Below, piece by piece: positions 4,791-63,639 of a stretch of DNA of 64,000 bases. How positions within the stretch are numbered: the first letter of the stretch is position 1; every line of letters begins with the position of its first letter. Both the position numbers and the translations under genes were made by a program. The notes under the pieces are model-generated. The model made no database searches and was not told the origin of the DNA. It saw only the letters and a list, made by a program, of their open reading frames with translations. The DNA is from Bacteroidaceae bacterium. Lineage in GTDB: Bacteria; Bacteroidota; Bacteroidia; Bacteroidales; Bacteroidaceae. The stretch lies in the NCBI GenBank assembly GCA_017442855.1, contig JAFSPM010000030.1, forward strand, positions 16,575 to 80,574, given 5' to 3'.

Positions 4791-5465
4791 TCACCTCAGG
4801 TCGATGACCTCTATACCAGGGTACTGACTCTTGTCAAACACAAAAGCAGTAGCAGGAAGAGGACGTTTTTTTACTTCAAACTTATTAATATCTATCACCA
4901 CCACATCCAAACCGCCACGACTCGCCATACTCAACCTAACGGGGTAGAGTTCCTTCTGATGTATCAACAGCACGATGCTCTGCATCTCCTCGCGAGGGAT
5001 GGTGGTTGTCATAATCACCTTCCTTACATCAGACACACCCGTCTCGCCAAATTTCAGTTCGTAGCCTTGCTGATAAAGCGATATCCATGCGTAGGGGTTC
5101 AGTGCCTGCAACTCTTCGTCAGTAGGTTCAGACACATTCACCTCCTCGTTTTCCTCCACCAAAGTCCACTGCGTCTTGCCATCAAACCATGTCTTCATAC
5201 CTGGTGTGTCCAACACAAATTGCTTGCCCTGCACAGAGATATGTCCTTGCGATTGTTGATCATCCATATACACTGTAAAGTCTATCTCCACACGCCCCTC
5301 GGCAAAGGCCTTTTGCAACACCTCATCCAACAACTCCTTAGGCGTCTGAGCCATTGAAAACTGAAAGTTGAACATTGAAAATAGGAACATAAAGAGAGCT
5401 GTACTTAATAAGTGCCTACGCATCCCTTCCCCTACAGTTTTTTCACCCATTCGCTTCATCTTCAA
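4791..5465 (-). CDS. lolA: LolA-like outer-membrane lipoprotein carrier protein
   Basis: Up to 224 residues. A signal peptide (LLSTALFMFLFSMFNFQFSMAQ) ends near residue 40, followed by a LolA-type body (KELLDEVLQKAFAEG, GKQFVLDTPGMKTWFDGKTQWTL, LNPYAWISLYQQGY). LolA proteins carry lipoproteins across the periplasm to the outer membrane. The ftsK stop lies 3 nt upstream of the longest start. The ATG at 5423 (MRRHLLSTA) gives a more compact signal peptide and could be the real start. It is the second gene of the ftsK operon. Confidence 0.85.
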   Translation of the reverse strand: MKMKRMGEKTVGEGMRRHLLSTALFMFLFSMFNFQFSMAQTPKELLDEVLQKAFAEGRVEIDFTVYMDDQQSQGHISVQGKQFVLDTPGMKTWFDGKTQWTLVEENEEVNVSEPTDEELQALNPYAWISLYQQGYELKFGETGVSDVRKVIMTTTIPREEMQSIVLLIHQKELYPVRLSMASRGGLDVVVIDINKFEVKKRPLPATAFVFDKSQYPGIEVIDLR

Positions 5466-40364: not shown

Positions 40365-41237
40365 ATGAAAAGAAGAGATTTTATCAAATTTATGGCTGCA
40401 GCTATGGCTGCTACGGCAGTAGGAGTAAACGTAACCTCATGTGGTGAATCTAATGGAAAGAAGCGTCTCATTTTCTTCTTTACCGGTACAGGAAACAGCC
40501 TTTTTGTGGCTAAAGAGATTGGCGGACAGCTAATCAGTATTCCTCAAGCTTTGAAACAAGATGAACTTTCTTACACCGCCGACGAGATTGGCATCGTTTG
40601 TCCTCTCTATGGACACACTCCCCCAAATCAAGTGCGTGAATTCCTGAAGCGTGCCAAGCTGAACGCTCCTTATATGTTTGTAGTGCAGACCTATGGTGCG
40701 CGCAAGTGCAACGCTGTAGAGATATTCGACGCCTTGGCACAGAAGGAAGGCATTAAATTTGATTACCTGACTACCATCATCATGGTCGACAACTTCTTGG
40801 TAAGCCACGACATCGACGAGGAAATCCAGATGGAGAAGCATATTGAGGAGAACCTGGCGCAAATCAAGGCCGATATCGCAGAGCAGAAACATTGGATGCA
40901 GCCTGTAACTGAGGTGGAGCGCCAACAACACTGGGAGCGCTATGGACATGACTTCGAGCGCTATTCCTATCAGAATCCTTCCAGAACTTTCAGGGTAGAA
41001 CGCGATCTCTGTGTGGGCTGTGGTGCCTGCACTCGGGTTTGTCCGAAGAGCAACTGGAAATTCACTAACAATGGTCTCGAAGTGGATGGCGATTGCCAGA
41101 TGTGCTTCGCCTGCATCAACAACTGTCCACAGAAAGCTATCAAGCTGAATGGGCGCGAGGCTAACCCCAACGCTCGTTGGCGTCATCCGAAAATAACTTT
41201 GCAGGAGCTGCAGCGAGCGAATCATATTATAGCATAG
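40365..41237 (+). CDS. EFR1-like flavodoxin/2x[4Fe-4S] ferredoxin protein with Tat-type lipoprotein signal
   Basis: 290 residues from the ATG at 40365, after the -7 box. The N terminus KRRDFIKFMAAAMAATAVG followed by NVTSC looks like a twin-arginine signal with a lipobox Cys. A flavodoxin-like half follows (IFFFTGTGNSLFVAKEI, VCPLYGHTPPNQVREFL). Two ferredoxin motifs lie near residues 216-250 (CVGCGACTRVCPK and CQMCFACINNCPQKAI). This is the EFR1 family architecture, here apparently exported and membrane anchored. It is followed by an aldo/keto reductase that also has a Tat-like signal, suggesting an extracytoplasmic redox pair. Confidence 0.88.
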   Translation: MKRRDFIKFMAAAMAATAVGVNVTSCGESNGKKRLIFFFTGTGNSLFVAKEIGGQLISIPQALKQDELSYTADEIGIVCPLYGHTPPNQVREFLKRAKLNAPYMFVVQTYGARKCNAVEIFDALAQKEGIKFDYLTTIIMVDNFLVSHDIDEEIQMEKHIEENLAQIKADIAEQKHWMQPVTEVERQQHWERYGHDFERYSYQNPSRTFRVERDLCVGCGACTRVCPKSNWKFTNNGLEVDGDCQMCFACINNCPQKAIKLNGREANPNARWRHPKITLQELQRANHIIA

Positions 41238-41281
41238 TTACAAGCTACGAGTTACGAGTTTTTTTGAAGAGAAGGAAGATT

Positions 41282-44001: not shown

Positions 44002-44511
44002 TTATTCTACTTGTTCCGTCTGAAAACTGTTCAGCTCCTGCTGATAGATAACCCCTCGTTCCTTCGAGAAGAAGTCGATGGTGAGGGCGGCGAGGGCTAT
44101 CAGGATGAGTGCTAATGCCGAGGCTCGCAGCCACGGTTTGTCACAGAAGGCGAACACACAGATGGCGACGACCATCATGATGGCAGAGACGATGATGGTC
44201 TGCGGATAGATCTTCATGAAGTCGGCCACGCGGGCCTTCTCGCTTTCTAGGAACTTCTCGGGCGACTCCTGGTATTGCTCCACGAACTGCGCACGGCGCG
44301 TGTGGTTGCTGTAGGCCAACGAGCCGCCGAGTGCGACGAGGATGACCGCCACCACCGTCAGCGGCAGGATGATGGCGCGAGCCGACTCCGACGTGCCCCA
44401 GCGCCAAGCCACAAGGACCAGTACGAGGCATGCCACGCCTCCGACAATCATGGCAAAATCTTCCATGATTTCGCCCGATACCCATTTGTTTGTGTAGTCA
44501 ATCAGTTCCAT
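44002..44511 (-). CDS. small membrane protein, unrecognised family
   Basis: 169 residues. It starts MELIDYTNKWVSGEIMEDFA, then has hydrophobic segments at about residues 20-36, 46-64, 104-121 and 129-147, with a charged stretch between (HTRRAQFVEQYQESPEKFLES). No family is recognised. The first 15 residues recur almost identically at the start of a truncated ORF at 45909. Base composition is a little more GC-rich than its neighbours, which may indicate transfer. The 115-bp repeat lies 61 nt upstream. Confidence 0.7.
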   Translation of the reverse strand: MELIDYTNKWVSGEIMEDFAMIVGGVACLVLVLVAWRWGTSESARAIILPLTVVAVILVALGGSLAYSNHTRRAQFVEQYQESPEKFLESEKARVADFMKIYPQTIIVSAIMMVVAICVFAFCDKPWLRASALALILIALAALTIDFFSKERGVIYQQELNSFQTEQVE

Positions 44512-44572
44512 AATCGTTTATGTTTTAAGTTTCTGGGTGCAATGATGCGATTAAGCGAGAGCAGAGTCGAAC

Positions 44573-44687
44573 TGTAAATAGTAATTGAAAAGTATACCAC
44601 CATAATAATCGTATATACTTTCAGCACTCCATTGATTTACGATATCTCATAGATATTATCAGGTTTACTTATACGTTATTATTTACA
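44573..44687. repeat. 115-bp MITE-like element, copy 1
   Basis: Starts TGTAAATA and ends ATTTACA; 112 of 115 bases match 57991-58105. The two ends form an imperfect inverted repeat of about 26 bp (19 matches); in this copy the perfect outer arms extend to AACTGTAAAT / ATTTACAGTT. It contains no ORF. It directly abuts a partial copy of another repeat (44549-44572). Confidence 0.85.
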
Positions 44688-44791: not shown

Positions 44792-45895
44792 ATGAATCGT
44801 TCTCAGAAAATAATACGTACTAGCATCATTGGCATTACTGCCAATATATTGTTGGCTGCTTTTAAAGCTGTGGTGGGCATACTTGCCAGCAGTGTGGCTA
44901 TTGTGATGGATGCTGTCAACAACCTCAGTGATGCCTTGTCAAGTGTCATCACCATTATTGGTACCAAACTTTCGGAGCGTCCTGCCGACCGTGAGCATCC
45001 TTTCGGCTTTGGGCGCGTAGAATATTTCAGTGCTATCCTCATTGCTGTATTGGTGCTGACTGCCGGCGTTACTTCGCTAATTGAATCGGTAAAAAAAGTT
45101 ATCGAACCTACAGAACCAGAATATACCACAGTGACGCTGATAGTCATCATTGTAGCTATTGTGGTGAAACTGATTTTAGGTCAATATGTCAAGAAACAGG
45201 GGCAACAGTTAAAGAGTGATGCTCTGATTGCTTCAGGTAGTGATGCATTGTTTGATGCCGTCATCACATTGTCCACTCTGGTGTCGGTTGGAATCATGCT
45301 TCTATGGAATGTGTCACTCGATGGTATCTTGGGCGCACTGATATCCTTAGTCATCATCAAAGCAGGTATTGAGATGCTGGCTTCACCAATCAATGAACTG
45401 CTGGGTGCCAGAATCTCTCCTGATCTGATTCATGACATCAAGCAAGAAGTATGCGCTTTTGAGGGGGTATATGGTGTTTATGACATCATCCTCCACAATT
45501 ATGGTCCCAATGTGTTGATTGGTTCATTGCACATCAATGTATATGATACGATGGATGCCCATGAGATTCATGGCTTGACACGACGCATTGCTGAAGAGAT
45601 GTTTGCCAAGCACGGCATCATTATGACGGTAGGCATTTATGCCATAGCTACGGGTACCAACAAACGGACAGATTTGCAAACAGCAGTGATGCATACGCTT
45701 GGCCGACATAAAGACATCACGCAGGTGCATGGCTTCTATTACTTTGAGCGCGAGAACCGTGTGTCAGTCGATGTGGTACCCGATATCTCCATTCACGACG
45801 AGCCTGCCTTCTGCCGCCAGCTGACAGAAGAGTTGAAGGCCGTAATACCCAACACGATTGTCAGCATAGTGATAGACCATAATTACAGTGAATAA
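44792..45895 (+). CDS. cation diffusion facilitator (CDF) family transporter
   Basis: 367 residues. Six predicted membrane helices fill residues about 10-205, with the metal-site motifs AIVMDAVNNLSDALSS (D-x3-D type) and ALIASGSDALFDAVI. EHPFGFGRVEYFSAI is the family signature, and a cytoplasmic C-terminal domain follows (GPNVLIGSLHINVYDTMDAH). It probably exports zinc, iron or manganese by proton antiport; the metal cannot be assigned. An extra C-terminal extension of about 75 residues (TDLQTAVMHTLGRHKDI...) follows the usual domain. Confidence 0.94.
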   Translation: MNRSQKIIRTSIIGITANILLAAFKAVVGILASSVAIVMDAVNNLSDALSSVITIIGTKLSERPADREHPFGFGRVEYFSAILIAVLVLTAGVTSLIESVKKVIEPTEPEYTTVTLIVIIVAIVVKLILGQYVKKQGQQLKSDALIASGSDALFDAVITLSTLVSVGIMLLWNVSLDGILGALISLVIIKAGIEMLASPINELLGARISPDLIHDIKQEVCAFEGVYGVYDIILHNYGPNVLIGSLHINVYDTMDAHEIHGLTRRIAEEMFAKHGIIMTVGIYAIATGTNKRTDLQTAVMHTLGRHKDITQVHGFYYFERENRVSVDVVPDISIHDEPAFCRQLTEELKAVIPNTIVSIVIDHNYSE

Positions 45896-45908
45896 TACAA
45901 ATAAGTTT

Positions 45909-46004
45909 ATGGAGCTGATTGACTACACAAACAAATGGGTTTCAGGCGAAATCCTGGAAGATTGGGCTGAAATTACACATCTCTGTTCAAAAAAAAGTAT
46001 ATAA
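45909..46004 (+). pseudogene. 31-codon ORF repeating the start of the membrane protein at 44511
   Basis: MELIDYTNKWVSGEI, then LEDWAEITHLCSKKSI and stop. The first 14 codons are nearly identical in DNA to the 5' end of the gene at 44511, after which the sequences diverge. It lies between the CDF transporter and the thioesterase. Probably a truncated paralogue, though it could be a short peptide. Confidence 0.5.
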
Positions 46005-49857: not shown

Positions 49858-50007
49858 AAGCACGGCTTCACCTATTGTGGTATCATCTATCTTGCCAACG
49901 GACGGAGCAGCGAGAGCCGCCAAGCTCGCTTGGATGGCCGAGTCGTGACGGACGAAGGCGAAGCCAACGGTGATGAGCGTCTCGCTTATCAGAAAAGGAC
50001 AAAGTAA
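49858..50007 (+). pseudogene. C-terminal remnant of a GNAT acetyltransferase with inserted element
   Basis: Immediately after the glycerate kinase stop the same frame reads KHGFTYCGIIYLANG, then 22 odd residues, then DERLAYQKRTK and stop. KHGF...GIIYLANGDERLAYQK is the familiar tail of GNAT acetyltransferases; the rest of the gene is gone. The inserted residues are encoded by the hairpin element at 49902-49970. Confidence 0.6.
49902..49970 (+). repeat. in-frame hairpin element, family A, copy 1 (in GNAT remnant)
   Basis: 69 bp including one copy of the flanking repeat; GCCAACGG stands at both edges (49894-49901 and 49963-49970). The stem is CAAGC-TC-GCTTG near 49921-49932. It adds 23 codons without breaking the frame and encodes SSES...LDGRV...EGEAN. 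Confidence 0.7.
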
Positions 50008-50402
50008 TGCAGATAATACTCGCTTCCGCAAAAATTATGAATGTTTCGATTAAGCGAGAACAAAGTGAACTTGTTCGCTTTGTCGAGCGTGAGAAACATG
50101 GGACGAAGTCCAACGATAAGCTTAAGGCTGTACCGGATGTTAGCTTGTCAACGCCTCGTTTCCAAAATGAGGCAGAGTCCTTTGCTAGGGATATGACTCA
50201 GTATTCGGCAGAGGCGATAGCCGAAATGCTGGGCTGTGCGGAGAACGGCTACGCTGTCCTTCAGGCCACTGTCAAGGGCTACAGGGAGGAGCAGACCATC
50301 GTCGGTACGACGAAAGCTCTGGCATACTCCATCCACAACATGGTGGTGCTGAAGCGCAATACCCGTCTGAAAGAGCGCCTAAAAGAACAATCCAGTTCAT
50401 AA
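50007..50402 (+). pseudogene. YaaA (UPF0246) N-terminal piece with inserted element and foreign C terminus
   Basis: 131 codons. It begins MQIILASAKIMN, continues after 24 odd codons as DKLKAVPDVSLSTPRFQNEA then ESFARDMTQYSAEAIAEMLGC, the start of the YaaA peroxide-stress family (normally about 250 residues). After that the text (AENGYAVLQATVKGYREEQT...LKEQSSS) no longer follows YaaA and I do not recognise it. The odd codons are the family-B hairpin element at 50043-50114. The start ATG overlaps the GNAT remnant stop (TAATG). It is most likely a chimeric, non-functional gene. Confidence 0.55.
50043..50114 (+). repeat. in-frame hairpin element, family B (in yaaA piece)
   Basis: 72 bp between the codons for MN and DKLK. 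It contains AAAGTGAAC-TT-GTTCGCTTT, a near-perfect hairpin around 50062-50081. The beginning CGATTAAGCGAGAACAAAGT resembles 44548-44567 upstream of the 115-bp element. No clear target duplication. Confidence 0.55.
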
Positions 50403-57990: not shown

Positions 57991-58105
57991 TGTAAATTGT
58001 AATTGAAAAGTATACCACCATAATAATCGTTTATACTTTCAGCACTCCATTGATTTACGATATCTCAGAGATATTATCAGGTTTACTTATACGTTATTAT
58101 TTACA
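57991..58105. repeat. 115-bp MITE-like element, copy 2
   Basis: 112 of 115 bases identical to 44573-44687, in the same orientation, starting TGTAAAT and ending ATTTACA. It lies just after the acetyltransferase stop. No target duplication is evident. Confidence 0.85.
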
Positions 58106-58142
58106 CGACTCGTAAATCTCTTTGTTAGAAACACCTCTTCAT

Positions 58143-58174
58143 CTCCCAAGTCCTTGCGATTTGGGAGTTTTTTT
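58143..58174 (+). terminator. CTCCCAA hairpin terminator, copy 1
   Basis: CTCCCAA (58143-58149), 11-nt loop, TTGGGAG (58161-58167), then seven T. The same hairpin with nearly the same loop recurs at 63501 and, decayed, at 62323. Confidence 0.75.
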
Positions 58175-58320: not shown

Positions 58321-58866
58321 ATGACTAAGATTTATGATTTCAAGGCTCAGACGAGCAAAGGTAAAGAGATTGACTTCAAGCAGTTTGAAGGTAAGGTGCT
58401 GCTGATTGTAAACACAGCCAGCAAGTGTGGTTTTACACCTCAGTTTGCAGGACTGGAGGAGCTGAACCAGAAGTACAAAGAGAAGGGTTTGGTGATTATC
58501 GGCTTCCCCTGCAACCAGTTTAAGGAGCAAGATCCGGGCACTGACGGACAGATTGAGGAGTTCTGCCAGTTGAACTACGGCGTTTCCTTCCAGATTATGA
58601 AGAAAACCGATGTGAATGGGCCGGATGCAGAGCCCATATTCGAGTATCTGAAGGAGCAGGCTCCTACTGAGGAGTACCATGGATTGAAGGCCAAAGGGAT
58701 GGCTATGCTCATCAAGAAGCTTAGCAAGAGTGTGGAGAAAGACTGCGATATCAAGTGGAACTTCACCAAGTTCTTGATTTCAAAGGATGGTGAGACCATC
58801 AAGCGCTATGCTCCCACCACTGAGCCCAAGGACTTTGAGAAGGATGTAGAAGCGATACTTAATTGA
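58321..58866 (+). CDS. glutathione peroxidase-family thiol peroxidase (cytoplasmic)
   Basis: 181 residues with C36 in NTASKCGFTPQ, FPCNQFKEQDPG and WNFTKFLI, the GPx signature (Cys rather than selenocysteine). It reduces hydroperoxides, in bacteria usually with thioredoxin. First gene of a run with an OhrR-like regulator, a small Cys protein, a secreted GPx and a TlpA protein. Confidence 0.94.
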   Translation: MTKIYDFKAQTSKGKEIDFKQFEGKVLLIVNTASKCGFTPQFAGLEELNQKYKEKGLVIIGFPCNQFKEQDPGTDGQIEEFCQLNYGVSFQIMKKTDVNGPDAEPIFEYLKEQAPTEEYHGLKAKGMAMLIKKLSKSVEKDCDIKWNFTKFLISKDGETIKRYAPTTEPKDFEKDVEAILN

Positions 58867-58885
58867 GAATTGACAATTGAGAATT

Positions 58886-62306: not shown

Positions 62307-62322
62307 TAATCCACTAAATCAT

Positions 62323-62346
62323 CTCCCAAGTCCTTGTGATTTGGCA
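62323..62346 (+). repeat. decayed CTCCCAA hairpin, copy 2
   Basis: CTCCCAAGTCCTTGTGATTT then GGCAG: same as the hairpin at 58143 but with one stem base changed and no T-run. Its loop supplies the -33 TTG of the next promoter. Confidence 0.65.
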
Positions 62347-62363
62347 GAATTATTGTATATTTG
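62334..62363 (+). promoter_or_regulatory. promoter of the small HTH gene
   Basis: TTG (62334-62336), 19 nt, TATATTTG (62356-62363), 37 nt before the ATG at 62401. Confidence 0.65.
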
Positions 62364-62400: not shown

Positions 62401-62577
62401 ATGAAAGAGAAAGTATTACAGGCTATGCGCGAGGCTGGGAAGCCCGTTTCAGCAGACGACGTGACAAAGGCACTGGGTGCTGATCGTAAGGAAGTGGACA
62501 AGGCTTTTGCCGAGTTGAAGAAGGAGGGCGCTATCGTATCGCCCGTCCGTTGTAAGTGGGAGCCGAAGGAGCAGTGA
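62401..62577 (+). CDS. small winged-helix protein
   Basis: 58 residues: MKEKVLQAMREAGKPVSADD, VTKALGADRKEVDKAFAELK, then KEGAIVSPVRCKWEPKEQ. Helix-turn-helix-wing pattern of small DNA-binding proteins in Bacteroidales. The last codons and stop (GAGCAGTGA) coincide with the start of a family-A hairpin element, so the original C terminus may have been altered. It has its own promoter. Confidence 0.75.
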   Translation: MKEKVLQAMREAGKPVSADDVTKALGADRKEVDKAFAELKKEGAIVSPVRCKWEPKEQ

Positions 62578-62631
62578 GAGGAAAGCCAAGCTTGCTTGAG
62601 CTGTCCCGAGTCGTGACTGAGGAAGAAAGAA
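62569..62631 (+). repeat. hairpin element family A, divergent copy (3' end of small HTH gene)
   Basis: GGAGCAGTGAGAG, GCCAAGC-TT-GCTTG and CCGAGTCGTGAC line up with the copy at 49902-49970. The CAAGC/GCTTG stem is kept. Here the element is read in another frame and ends the gene. Confidence 0.6.
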
Positions 62632-62656
62632 TTTCAACCAGCAAAACAAAAGAATT

Positions 62657-63475
62657 ATGGAAATCAAAGCAATCAGAATGTTCGACGGCGGGTTCATGAA
62701 CCAGTCGTTCGCTTTCGGAGGAGAAAGCAAGGAGGGTTTGGATGAACAGATCATCTATCGCAGTTCGCTACAGAATTTCCTCATCGATACAGGTGAGGAG
62801 GTGATTCTCGTGGACACAGGTTTCAAAACAGGTATGGCGGCTCCCGCCAAGAAACTCGGTGCACCGCTCTATATGGGCGAAAAGGTGGCTGACTATATGG
62901 ATGCCTTCGCTGCCCTCGGCTACAAGCCTGAGCAGGTGACGAAGATCCTCATCACCCACAAGCACCCCGACCATACGGCAGCCCTGGAGTACTTCCCCAA
63001 TGCCAAGGTGTATATCTCGCCTGAGGATGCCGATGCCATGAAACTTCCGAGCAGCGAGAGCCATCCGAGCTCGCTCGAAGATGGCCGAGTCGCGAGGAAG
63101 GAAGGCGAAGCCAAACTTCCTGAAGGCGGAAACATCATTCGTGCCCAATATGGCAAGGCCTACAAGAACTTCCCCAATGCACAGGAAGTGGCAGCCGGCA
63201 TCTGGTTCATCGAGGCTAAGGGCCACACCAATGGCAACAGCATCATCATTGCTGAAGATGGTGACCTATACTATATGTTCCACGGCGACGTGACCTACTG
63301 CGATGCAGCCCTGAAGGCCAACAAACTCAGCATCGTCTTCGAGGACATCAAGGCAGCCCGCCAGACGCTCGACCGTGTGCGCGAATTCATCAAGAACCAA
63401 CCCACAGTCTATCTCTCCACCCACTGCCCAGAGGGCTACGAAAACTTGGAGATGAAGCGCGTGATGACGCTTTGA
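62657..63475 (+). CDS. MBL-fold metallo-hydrolase with inserted element
   Basis: 272 residues. The zinc motif ITHKHPDHTAAL (HxHxDH) is near residue 100, followed by EAKGHTNGNSII, MFHGDVTYCD and a late His in STHCPEGYENL, so both metal sites look complete. Residues about 132-155 (SSESHPSSLEDGRVARKEGEAKLP, in part) are an in-frame insertion from the hairpin element at 63049-63120, between the strand ending YISPEDADAM and the next block NIIRAQYGKAYKNFP. N-acyl homoserine lactonase-like or other hydrolase; substrate unknown. Confidence 0.9.
   Translation: MEIKAIRMFDGGFMNQSFAFGGESKEGLDEQIIYRSSLQNFLIDTGEEVILVDTGFKTGMAAPAKKLGAPLYMGEKVADYMDAFAALGYKPEQVTKILITHKHPDHTAALEYFPNAKVYISPEDADAMKLPSSESHPSSLEDGRVARKEGEAKLPEGGNIIRAQYGKAYKNFPNAQEVAAGIWFIEAKGHTNGNSIIIAEDGDLYYMFHGDVTYCDAALKANKLSIVFEDIKAARQTLDRVREFIKNQPTVYLSTHCPEGYENLEMKRVMTL
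63049..63120 (+). repeat. in-frame hairpin element, family A, copy in MBL hydrolase gene
   Basis: 64 bp plus an 8-bp direct repeat AAACTTCC (63041-63048 and 63113-63120); 24 codons are added in frame. The hairpin is CCATC-CGAGC-TC-GCTCG-AA-GATGG. Reads SSES...LEDGRV...EGEAK in the host frame, the same frame as in the GNAT remnant. Confidence 0.8.
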
Positions 63476-63500
63476 GCCTTACAAACATCCACAAAATTAA

Positions 63501-63531
63501 CTCCCAAGTTCCTGCGATTTGGGAGTTTTTT
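63501..63531 (+). terminator. CTCCCAA hairpin terminator, copy 3
   Basis: CTCCCAA / TTGGGAG stem with the near-identical loop GTTCCTGCGAT, followed by a T-run and ATGCCATCAGCAAAT, which also matches the text after copy 1. Ends the MBL hydrolase transcript. Confidence 0.75.
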
Positions 63532-63639
63532 ATGCCATCAGCAAATTATATACACCTTTCGAATATTTGTTTAGAGGGTATTTGATAGAAATACTGTATC
63601 TCCTGATCGATGATAAAAGAGGTCAAAGTCCCAGCTGTT

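Follow-up and report, generated by a model that had tools for sequence, protein, structure and literature searches.

Nostoc SDR repeats, reportedly described by Elhai et al. in 2008, are said to be very small, structured cyanobacterial sequences of 21-27 nt that carry compensatory changes, sit within tandem heptamers and nest mutually within one another. Rickettsia palindromic elements (RPEs) are palindromic mobile repeats, given as ~150 bp, that settle in frame in unrelated genes and add a peptide to the product (PMC10969869). REPIN/RAYT systems comprise hairpin repeats that are believed to be mobilised in trans (PMC3116915). Finally, the heptanucleotide TAACTGA repeats are 7-bp direct repeats that also occur in a few Bacteroidetes and which, according to the authors, could conceivably mark transposon excisions (PMC4679880). 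Here we consider a 64,000-nucleotide stretch of DNA from a Bacteroidaceae bacterium, referred to throughout as the window.

The MBL-fold gene and its surroundings

An MBL-fold hydrolase gene in the window is open throughout and carries, in frame, a 64-bp insert between two copies of the same 8 bp, exactly as the preliminary description had reported (Table 1). Identical 8-mers exactly 72 bp apart start at five of 63,920 positions in the window, the MBL site among them. The covariance model R1 matches 63042-63112 at 82.6 bits, a score obtained with the MBL copy itself in the R1 alignment. A tblastn search (E<=1e-30) of 60 other genomes detected orthologues in three (G006, G008 and G023); in a MAFFT alignment the residues of the insert are absent from all of them. 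The gain had been put at 24 codons, of which the in-frame gain stands and the exact count does not, the net difference from the orthologues being 25: where they read KLEG the MBL gene reads KLP...KLPEG (KLP-24 codons-PEGG), and thus holds one codon beyond the 24. This 25th codon may be an older change. An AlphaFold model of the protein, built from 4 sequences, with a mean pLDDT of 61 and low confidence elsewhere in the protein too, shows the insert as coil of low confidence, with a helix on one side and a strand on the other.

Table 1. Features of the MBL-fold gene and element copies in the window
Feature	Position	Strand	Details
MBL-fold hydrolase gene, host of insert	62657..63475	+	272 codons, open; Pfam Lactamase_B E 1.5e-13; orthologues 248-249 aa
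5' copy of duplicated 8 bp AAACTTCC	63041..63048	+	final 5 bases form the outer stem's 5' arm
A-type element body	63049..63112	+	internal strand GAGCAGCGAG, inner hairpin, GAGTCGCGA, 3' arm, terminal GGC-GAA-GCC hairpin
3' arm GGAAG	63096..63100	+	pairs with CTTCC of the duplicated target
Terminal mini-hairpin GGC-GAA-GCC	63104..63112	+	
3' copy of duplicated 8 bp AAACTTCC	63113..63120	+	
Second A-type copy	49897..49973	+	flanks AACGGACG (49897-49904) and AACGGTGA (49966-49973); R1 68.6 bits
Third A-type copy	62562..62633	+	R1 64.5 bits; 23 bp upstream of MBL start codon
B-type copy	50041..50111	+	perfect 7-bp outer stem ATGTTTC/GAAACAT; R2 83.2 bits (copy in R2 alignment)
B-type copy, left part, cut off by 115-bp repeat	44542..44572	+	read by eye, without model match

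The inner hairpin first proposed, CCATC-CGAGC-TC-GCTCG-AA-GATGG, is present but proved to be only part of the structure: the prediction adds a middle helix, the terminal GGC-GAA-GCC and, outside these helices, a stem of CTTCC with GGAAG. For 63041-63112 the predicted fold reaches -29.2 kcal/mol (z -2.3), a value equalled or bettered by 4 of 200 shuffles. The related copy that had been noticed near 49902 is real (49898-49965) and lies in frame inside a C-terminal fragment, GIIYLANG..GDERLAYQK, which reads by eye like the end of a GNAT; its two flanks agree at 5 of 8 bases. The small gene before the third A-type copy runs into a TGA inside that copy, and the interval folded around it, 62568-62642, which does not coincide exactly with the copy, shows no folding advantage over shuffles.

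Several other repeats share the window. The 115-bp repeat that truncates one B-type copy occurs at 44573-44687 and 57991-58105 (97% identical; the first copy has ends TGTAAATA/TATTTACA) and is perhaps a separate MITE. A terminator-like repeat, CTCCCAAGT..GATTTGG.AG, is found three times (58139-58174, 62319-62354 and 63497-63532), twice followed by a T run. A 71-nt inverted repeat, 87% complementary, at 44457-44527 and 45893-45963 encloses a gene that reads by eye like a cation efflux protein. Heptamer tandem arrays stand at 5353-5382 (ATTGAAA), 41236-41260 (AGTTACG) and 58861-58885 (AATTGAG), with no R1 or R2 match listed at any of them.

Structure and distribution of the element family

The element has two structural subtypes, A and B, the latter (CGATTAAGCGAGAG...CGAGCGTGAG) modelled from 11 copies as R2, whose matches are partly shared with those of R1. 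From 5' to 3', a variable 5' arm of 5-7 nt is followed by a conserved internal strand, the inner hairpin, a second conserved strand, the 3' arm and a terminal mini-hairpin, the loop of which is frequently GAA-like, after which a direct repeat starting AA often follows. Terminal inverted repeats are absent: the 5' arm pairs with the internal 3' arm, and the 3' terminus is formed by the separate mini-hairpin.

Compensatory change runs through this structure. Both sides vary in 13 of 19 pairs in subtype A and in 17 of 22 in subtype B, the latter against a shuffle mean of 9.8 and 3 to 6 with the partners slid; none of 500 shuffles of subtype B scored as high on any of five covariation measures. 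Comparisons drew on 123 unique copies kept with 60 bp of flank on each side, of which the A flank test parsed 94 and the A arm test 101, and on a B list of 73 copies (67 used, 65 parsed). Outer arms match their own partners better than re-paired ones, at 4.37 of 5 positions versus 3.58 in subtype A (19 distinct arm pairs) and 6.45 of 7 versus 4.25 in subtype B (29 distinct arm pairs, three of them mis-parsed, with the 3' arm placed where it pairs best, a choice that biases towards this outcome), values reached by none of 5000 re-pairings in either subtype. The mini-hairpin was recovered by a loose search in 107 of 123 real windows against 37 to 97 of 123 shifted windows at equal score, so that the claim of a mini-hairpin rests on covariation. 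In the stems of the sense strand G.T outnumbers A.C by 89:6 (alignment A3), 81:14 (A2) and 40:20 in three partly overlapping alignments, a single column pair supplying 63 of the 89 G.T in A3 and another 34 of the 81 in A2. This excess hints that the sense strand folds on its own.

Further copies are plentiful: R1, built from 12 copies, gave 51 matches at E<0.001 in the 2.76-Mb assembly (4 of them partial, covering the inner hairpin only) and 64 at E<=1, counts that are lower bounds since 150 of 731 candidates were scored. Neither outcome that the preliminary description had named as refuting it thus arose, given the orthologues without the residues and these further copies. Full-length matches among those listed are mostly 66-80 nt. 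Beyond the assembly the family is patchy and, to judge by the names of relatives, one of Bacteroidales. Subtype A was found in 12 of 119 genomes of a genus sample (E<=1e-12) and subtype B in 13 of 119 (E<=1e-10); in an order sample, A occurred in 7 of 295 genomes at 1e-11 (6 of 183 genera) and B in 13 of 295 at 1e-10 (12 of 183 genera); and a phylum sample yielded 2 of 345 genomes at 1e-9, all of these counts including G000. Copies from relatives were picked, non-randomly, from the strongest matches listed. Six viral contigs matched one of two search patterns, and one viral contig, L249, bears two tandem B-type copies amid AACATTG heptamers with a 5-bp GATGT-GAA-ACATC mini-hairpin. In two genomes, elements (L025, L036, L152 and L154) appear by eye to lie within a bigger unit, the outer parts of which look like GGATGTG..CACATCC. 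A literature search, thin in its coverage of subscription papers, turned up no published report in which we recognised this element family.

Flank repeats, heptamer arrays and probable movement

The reading towards which we lean, as moderately probable, is that of a non-autonomous structured mobile element, moved in trans with a 7-8-bp target duplication and translated as a tolerated loop where it lands in a gene. Under such a scheme, the sense strand of a miniature element of ~60-75 bp would fold into its conserved structure, a putative trans-acting enzyme would recognise that fold, insert copies and duplicate 7-8 bp of the target, and an insertion within a gene would survive if the frame were kept and the loop tolerant, thereafter being translated, in the MBL protein as 24-25 extra residues. 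We infer the enzyme itself, its recognition of the element in single-stranded form (RNA or ssDNA), that the insert is translated and that enzyme function is retained.

Movement is supported by elements that have fallen into one another and by identical copies. In L126 a B-type insert lies between two AAAATTG in an A-type tail that in the sibling copy L123 reads GCGATAAAATTGATGC uninterrupted; L146, set against its sibling L140 in another genome, presents a like insertion between AAAATCG and AAAATTG, with one mismatch; and the series is extended by the other L126 pair and by three sister cases that match less well. In each the empty state is that of a sibling copy, as distinct from the same locus in another strain, and the target resembles an arm of the incoming element. 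In G013 five contigs share an identical 72-mer and three an identical 71-mer, which speaks for recent movement. Insertion of one copy into another, duplicating 7 bp, and identical copies at separate places are evident from the sequences compared, and the spread claimed in the preliminary description of a self-spreading palindromic element is supported; that it spreads unaided is a part of the claim which nothing shows.

How general is the duplication? Of 94 A copies, 53 have immediately ahead of the 7-nt arm a sequence of 8 bases that agrees at >=7/8 with the one following the mini-hairpin, against 16% under unmatched pairing, and of the registers only this one and its period-7 shadow are raised. 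With controls matched for genome and for hairpin class, the figure becomes 49 of 72 versus 39 expected, and A copies free of a heptamer array show the repeat before the arm in 6 of 33 cases. Taken together, these two results indicate that the A flank repeat mainly reflects the local heptamer class, and the case for copy-specific duplication as a general rule in subtype A loses much of its strength under this matching. The MBL copy stands apart, as its duplication includes the 5' arm (8/8) and it is the sole one of 94 A copies to reach >=7/8 in that register. In subtype B, repeats of >=7/8 occur before the arm in 8 of 67 copies (period-7 shadow 6) and including the arm in 7 of 67, with ~0.5 expected for each from unmatched cross-pairing and some of the copies being sisters. 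A target-site duplication is seen in the MBL gene, in the nested cases and at some B copies, with A copies mostly following the local heptamer class; in a more distant genome, G321, a flank repeat is clear by eye in 1 of 17 copies read, 7 of which are identical.

Five B copies (L059, L062, L195, L205 and L214), from three genomes of different genera, stand just before an NVPxLRFPEF-like peptide in proteins that read by eye like type I restriction S subunits. The host bases duplicated at L059 are not those duplicated at L195, and the 3' arm changes with them.

Where the duplication takes in the arm, the 5' side of the outer stem comes from the target, and the 3' arm may thus pick the target by base pairing. 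A more speculative extension, which we hold to be possible though rather doubtful, is that the 3' arm pairs with host DNA to choose the target, that the host 7-mer duplicated there then serves as 5' arm, rebuilding the outer stem at the new site, and that repeated insertion and loss leave 7-mers behind, so that heptamer arrays would be footprints of the element.

The converse order of events, in which the array came first, strikes us as unlikely. On that account heptamer arrays would grow by slippage with the hairpins as passengers that enter or move between arrays via homologous recombination, and the apparent duplication in most copies would be no other than the array unit. It draws strength from the 61 of 94 A copies that adjoin a tandem heptamer (>=6/7 bases) on at least one side, from the modest size of the matched copy-specific excess and from a threonine synthase loop after GYF, in which G013 has an A and a B element together with heptamers, G006 and G089 have heptamer-like sequence alone, and the other six of 9 aligned have neither. 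Arrays of one heptamer class also occur in 19 of 107 genomes that lack strong A-type matches. They are, however, more frequent in element-bearing genomes, at 8 of 12 (Fisher p 0.0007, relatedness not removed), and both the duplications outside arrays, at the MBL copy and some B copies, and the 7-bp duplications made by nested insertion into an A-type tail speak against passengers.

As for what might move a non-autonomous element, Y1 transposases and reverse transcriptases were considered and set aside, since across 24 genomes their presence does not track copy abundance. Among these incomplete MAGs Y1_Tnp occurs in 6 of 24 and RVT_1 in 9 of 24; neither was found in the richest genome, G013, and G000 has three RVT_1 matches. 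Y1_Tnp was found in G006, G089, G138 and G259, and in neither G000 nor G013 (80% and 89% complete).

Residence in genes and comparison with known systems

The element was said to tolerate residence in coding genes, which is supported by its presence in long open frames and qualified by the 98 of 128 copies (52 own and 76 from relatives) that lie outside frames open for 40 codons on both sides. The remaining 30 lie in one frame open for at least 40 codons on each side, and 17 of 128 reach at least 100 codons, in 15 frames and with 16 of the 17 in sense orientation. For B copies the former figure is 8 of 73, in a set partly overlapping the 128, and in G321 no copy of 17 lies in a frame open for more than 15 codons on both sides. 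Pfam names ten of these host frames, among them threonine synthase, CbiD-CbiJ, ACR_tran and domains binding pterin and B12 of the kind that methionine synthase has, and also peptidase U32, which hosts the element in two genomes at what is by eye an equal place. In-frame residence in conserved enzymes is accordingly apparent at the level of the reading frames.

A stop-free sense strand is not supported as the cause of the sense bias, as the antisense strand is the more open in both A (1.83 antisense versus 1.52 sense frames, 95 copies) and B (1.34 versus 0.91, 68 copies). Heptamer arrays may explain it. The bias could also be taken, with the G.T excess of the sense strand and the RVT_1 matches in G000 and G008, as a sign of RNA-mediated copying, in which a folded transcript would be reverse-transcribed and inserted by target priming, as SINEs are; yet stop codons in reversed heptamer arrays could produce the same bias and no RVT_1 match was found in G013, G006, G027, G089 or G081 (all incomplete MAGs), and we regard this route as improbable.

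If a conserved enzyme houses a strongly folding insert, the insert might instead be removed after transcription, whether in the manner of an intron or by ribosome bypassing, so that the enzyme would never contain it. Because frames are kept, we think this highly unlikely: among 123 copies (47 own and 76 from relatives, short partial matches and near-duplicates left out), 35 are flanked on either side by 50 or more open codons, and in 22 of these the frame is maintained (19 sense, 3 antisense). Eight of the 13 that differ in frame were read, and they fall at gene ends or junctions (L026, L044, L055, L060 and L123), where no gene is recognisable (L131 and L138), or, in L149, beside an in-frame stop in a gene that is perhaps broken. 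No clear case of a gene split across frames was found among these eight, so translation of the insert would be the simplest reading. It is likewise very improbable that the element is a cis-regulatory RNA or terminator-like motif retained for function and not spreading, as its conserved structure, the position of most copies outside long open frames and the stop codons that some provide might suggest, given its varied gene contexts, its identical and nested copies, its presence within coding loops and the lack of any Rfam match in the window above gathering thresholds.

Should the favoured reading of a mobile element moved in trans be true, tiny structured mobile elements would be adding new peptide loops to conserved enzymes in a separate, independent lineage, one of gut-type bacteria as opposed to reduced intracellular ones. 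Heptamer tandem arrays would then be tied to a mobile element whose duplication size can be tested, and annotation would receive a warning, namely that extra enzyme residues in element-bearing bacteria can be element insertions.

Set beside described systems, the element is like MITEs in being short, by our reading non-autonomous, and perhaps in the target duplication of some copies, and unlike them in lacking terminal inverted repeats, its 3' end being a hairpin of its own. It differs from REPIN/RAYT in that no Y1_Tnp match was found in G000 or G013, and we know of no 7-8 bp duplication in that system. With Nostoc SDR it shares compensatory changes and a heptamer context, unlike them in length (mostly 66-80 nt versus 21-27 nt); to our knowledge, in-frame residence in enzymes has no counterpart there. 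The TAACTGA repeats come, in the part of the source available, with no description of a structured element of such a kind (PMC4679880). The behaviour is one known from RPEs and from heptamer-embedded cyanobacterial repeats, in an element without terminal inverted repeats and without an Rfam match in the window. The likeness in concept to RPEs that was first suggested holds when the two are compared by description, both being dispersed palindromic repeats that lie in frame in unrelated genes; the present element is set apart, as far as the available account of RPEs (~150 bp) extends, by its 60-75 bp, its terminal mini-hairpin, its often heptameric flanks and its home in another phylum.
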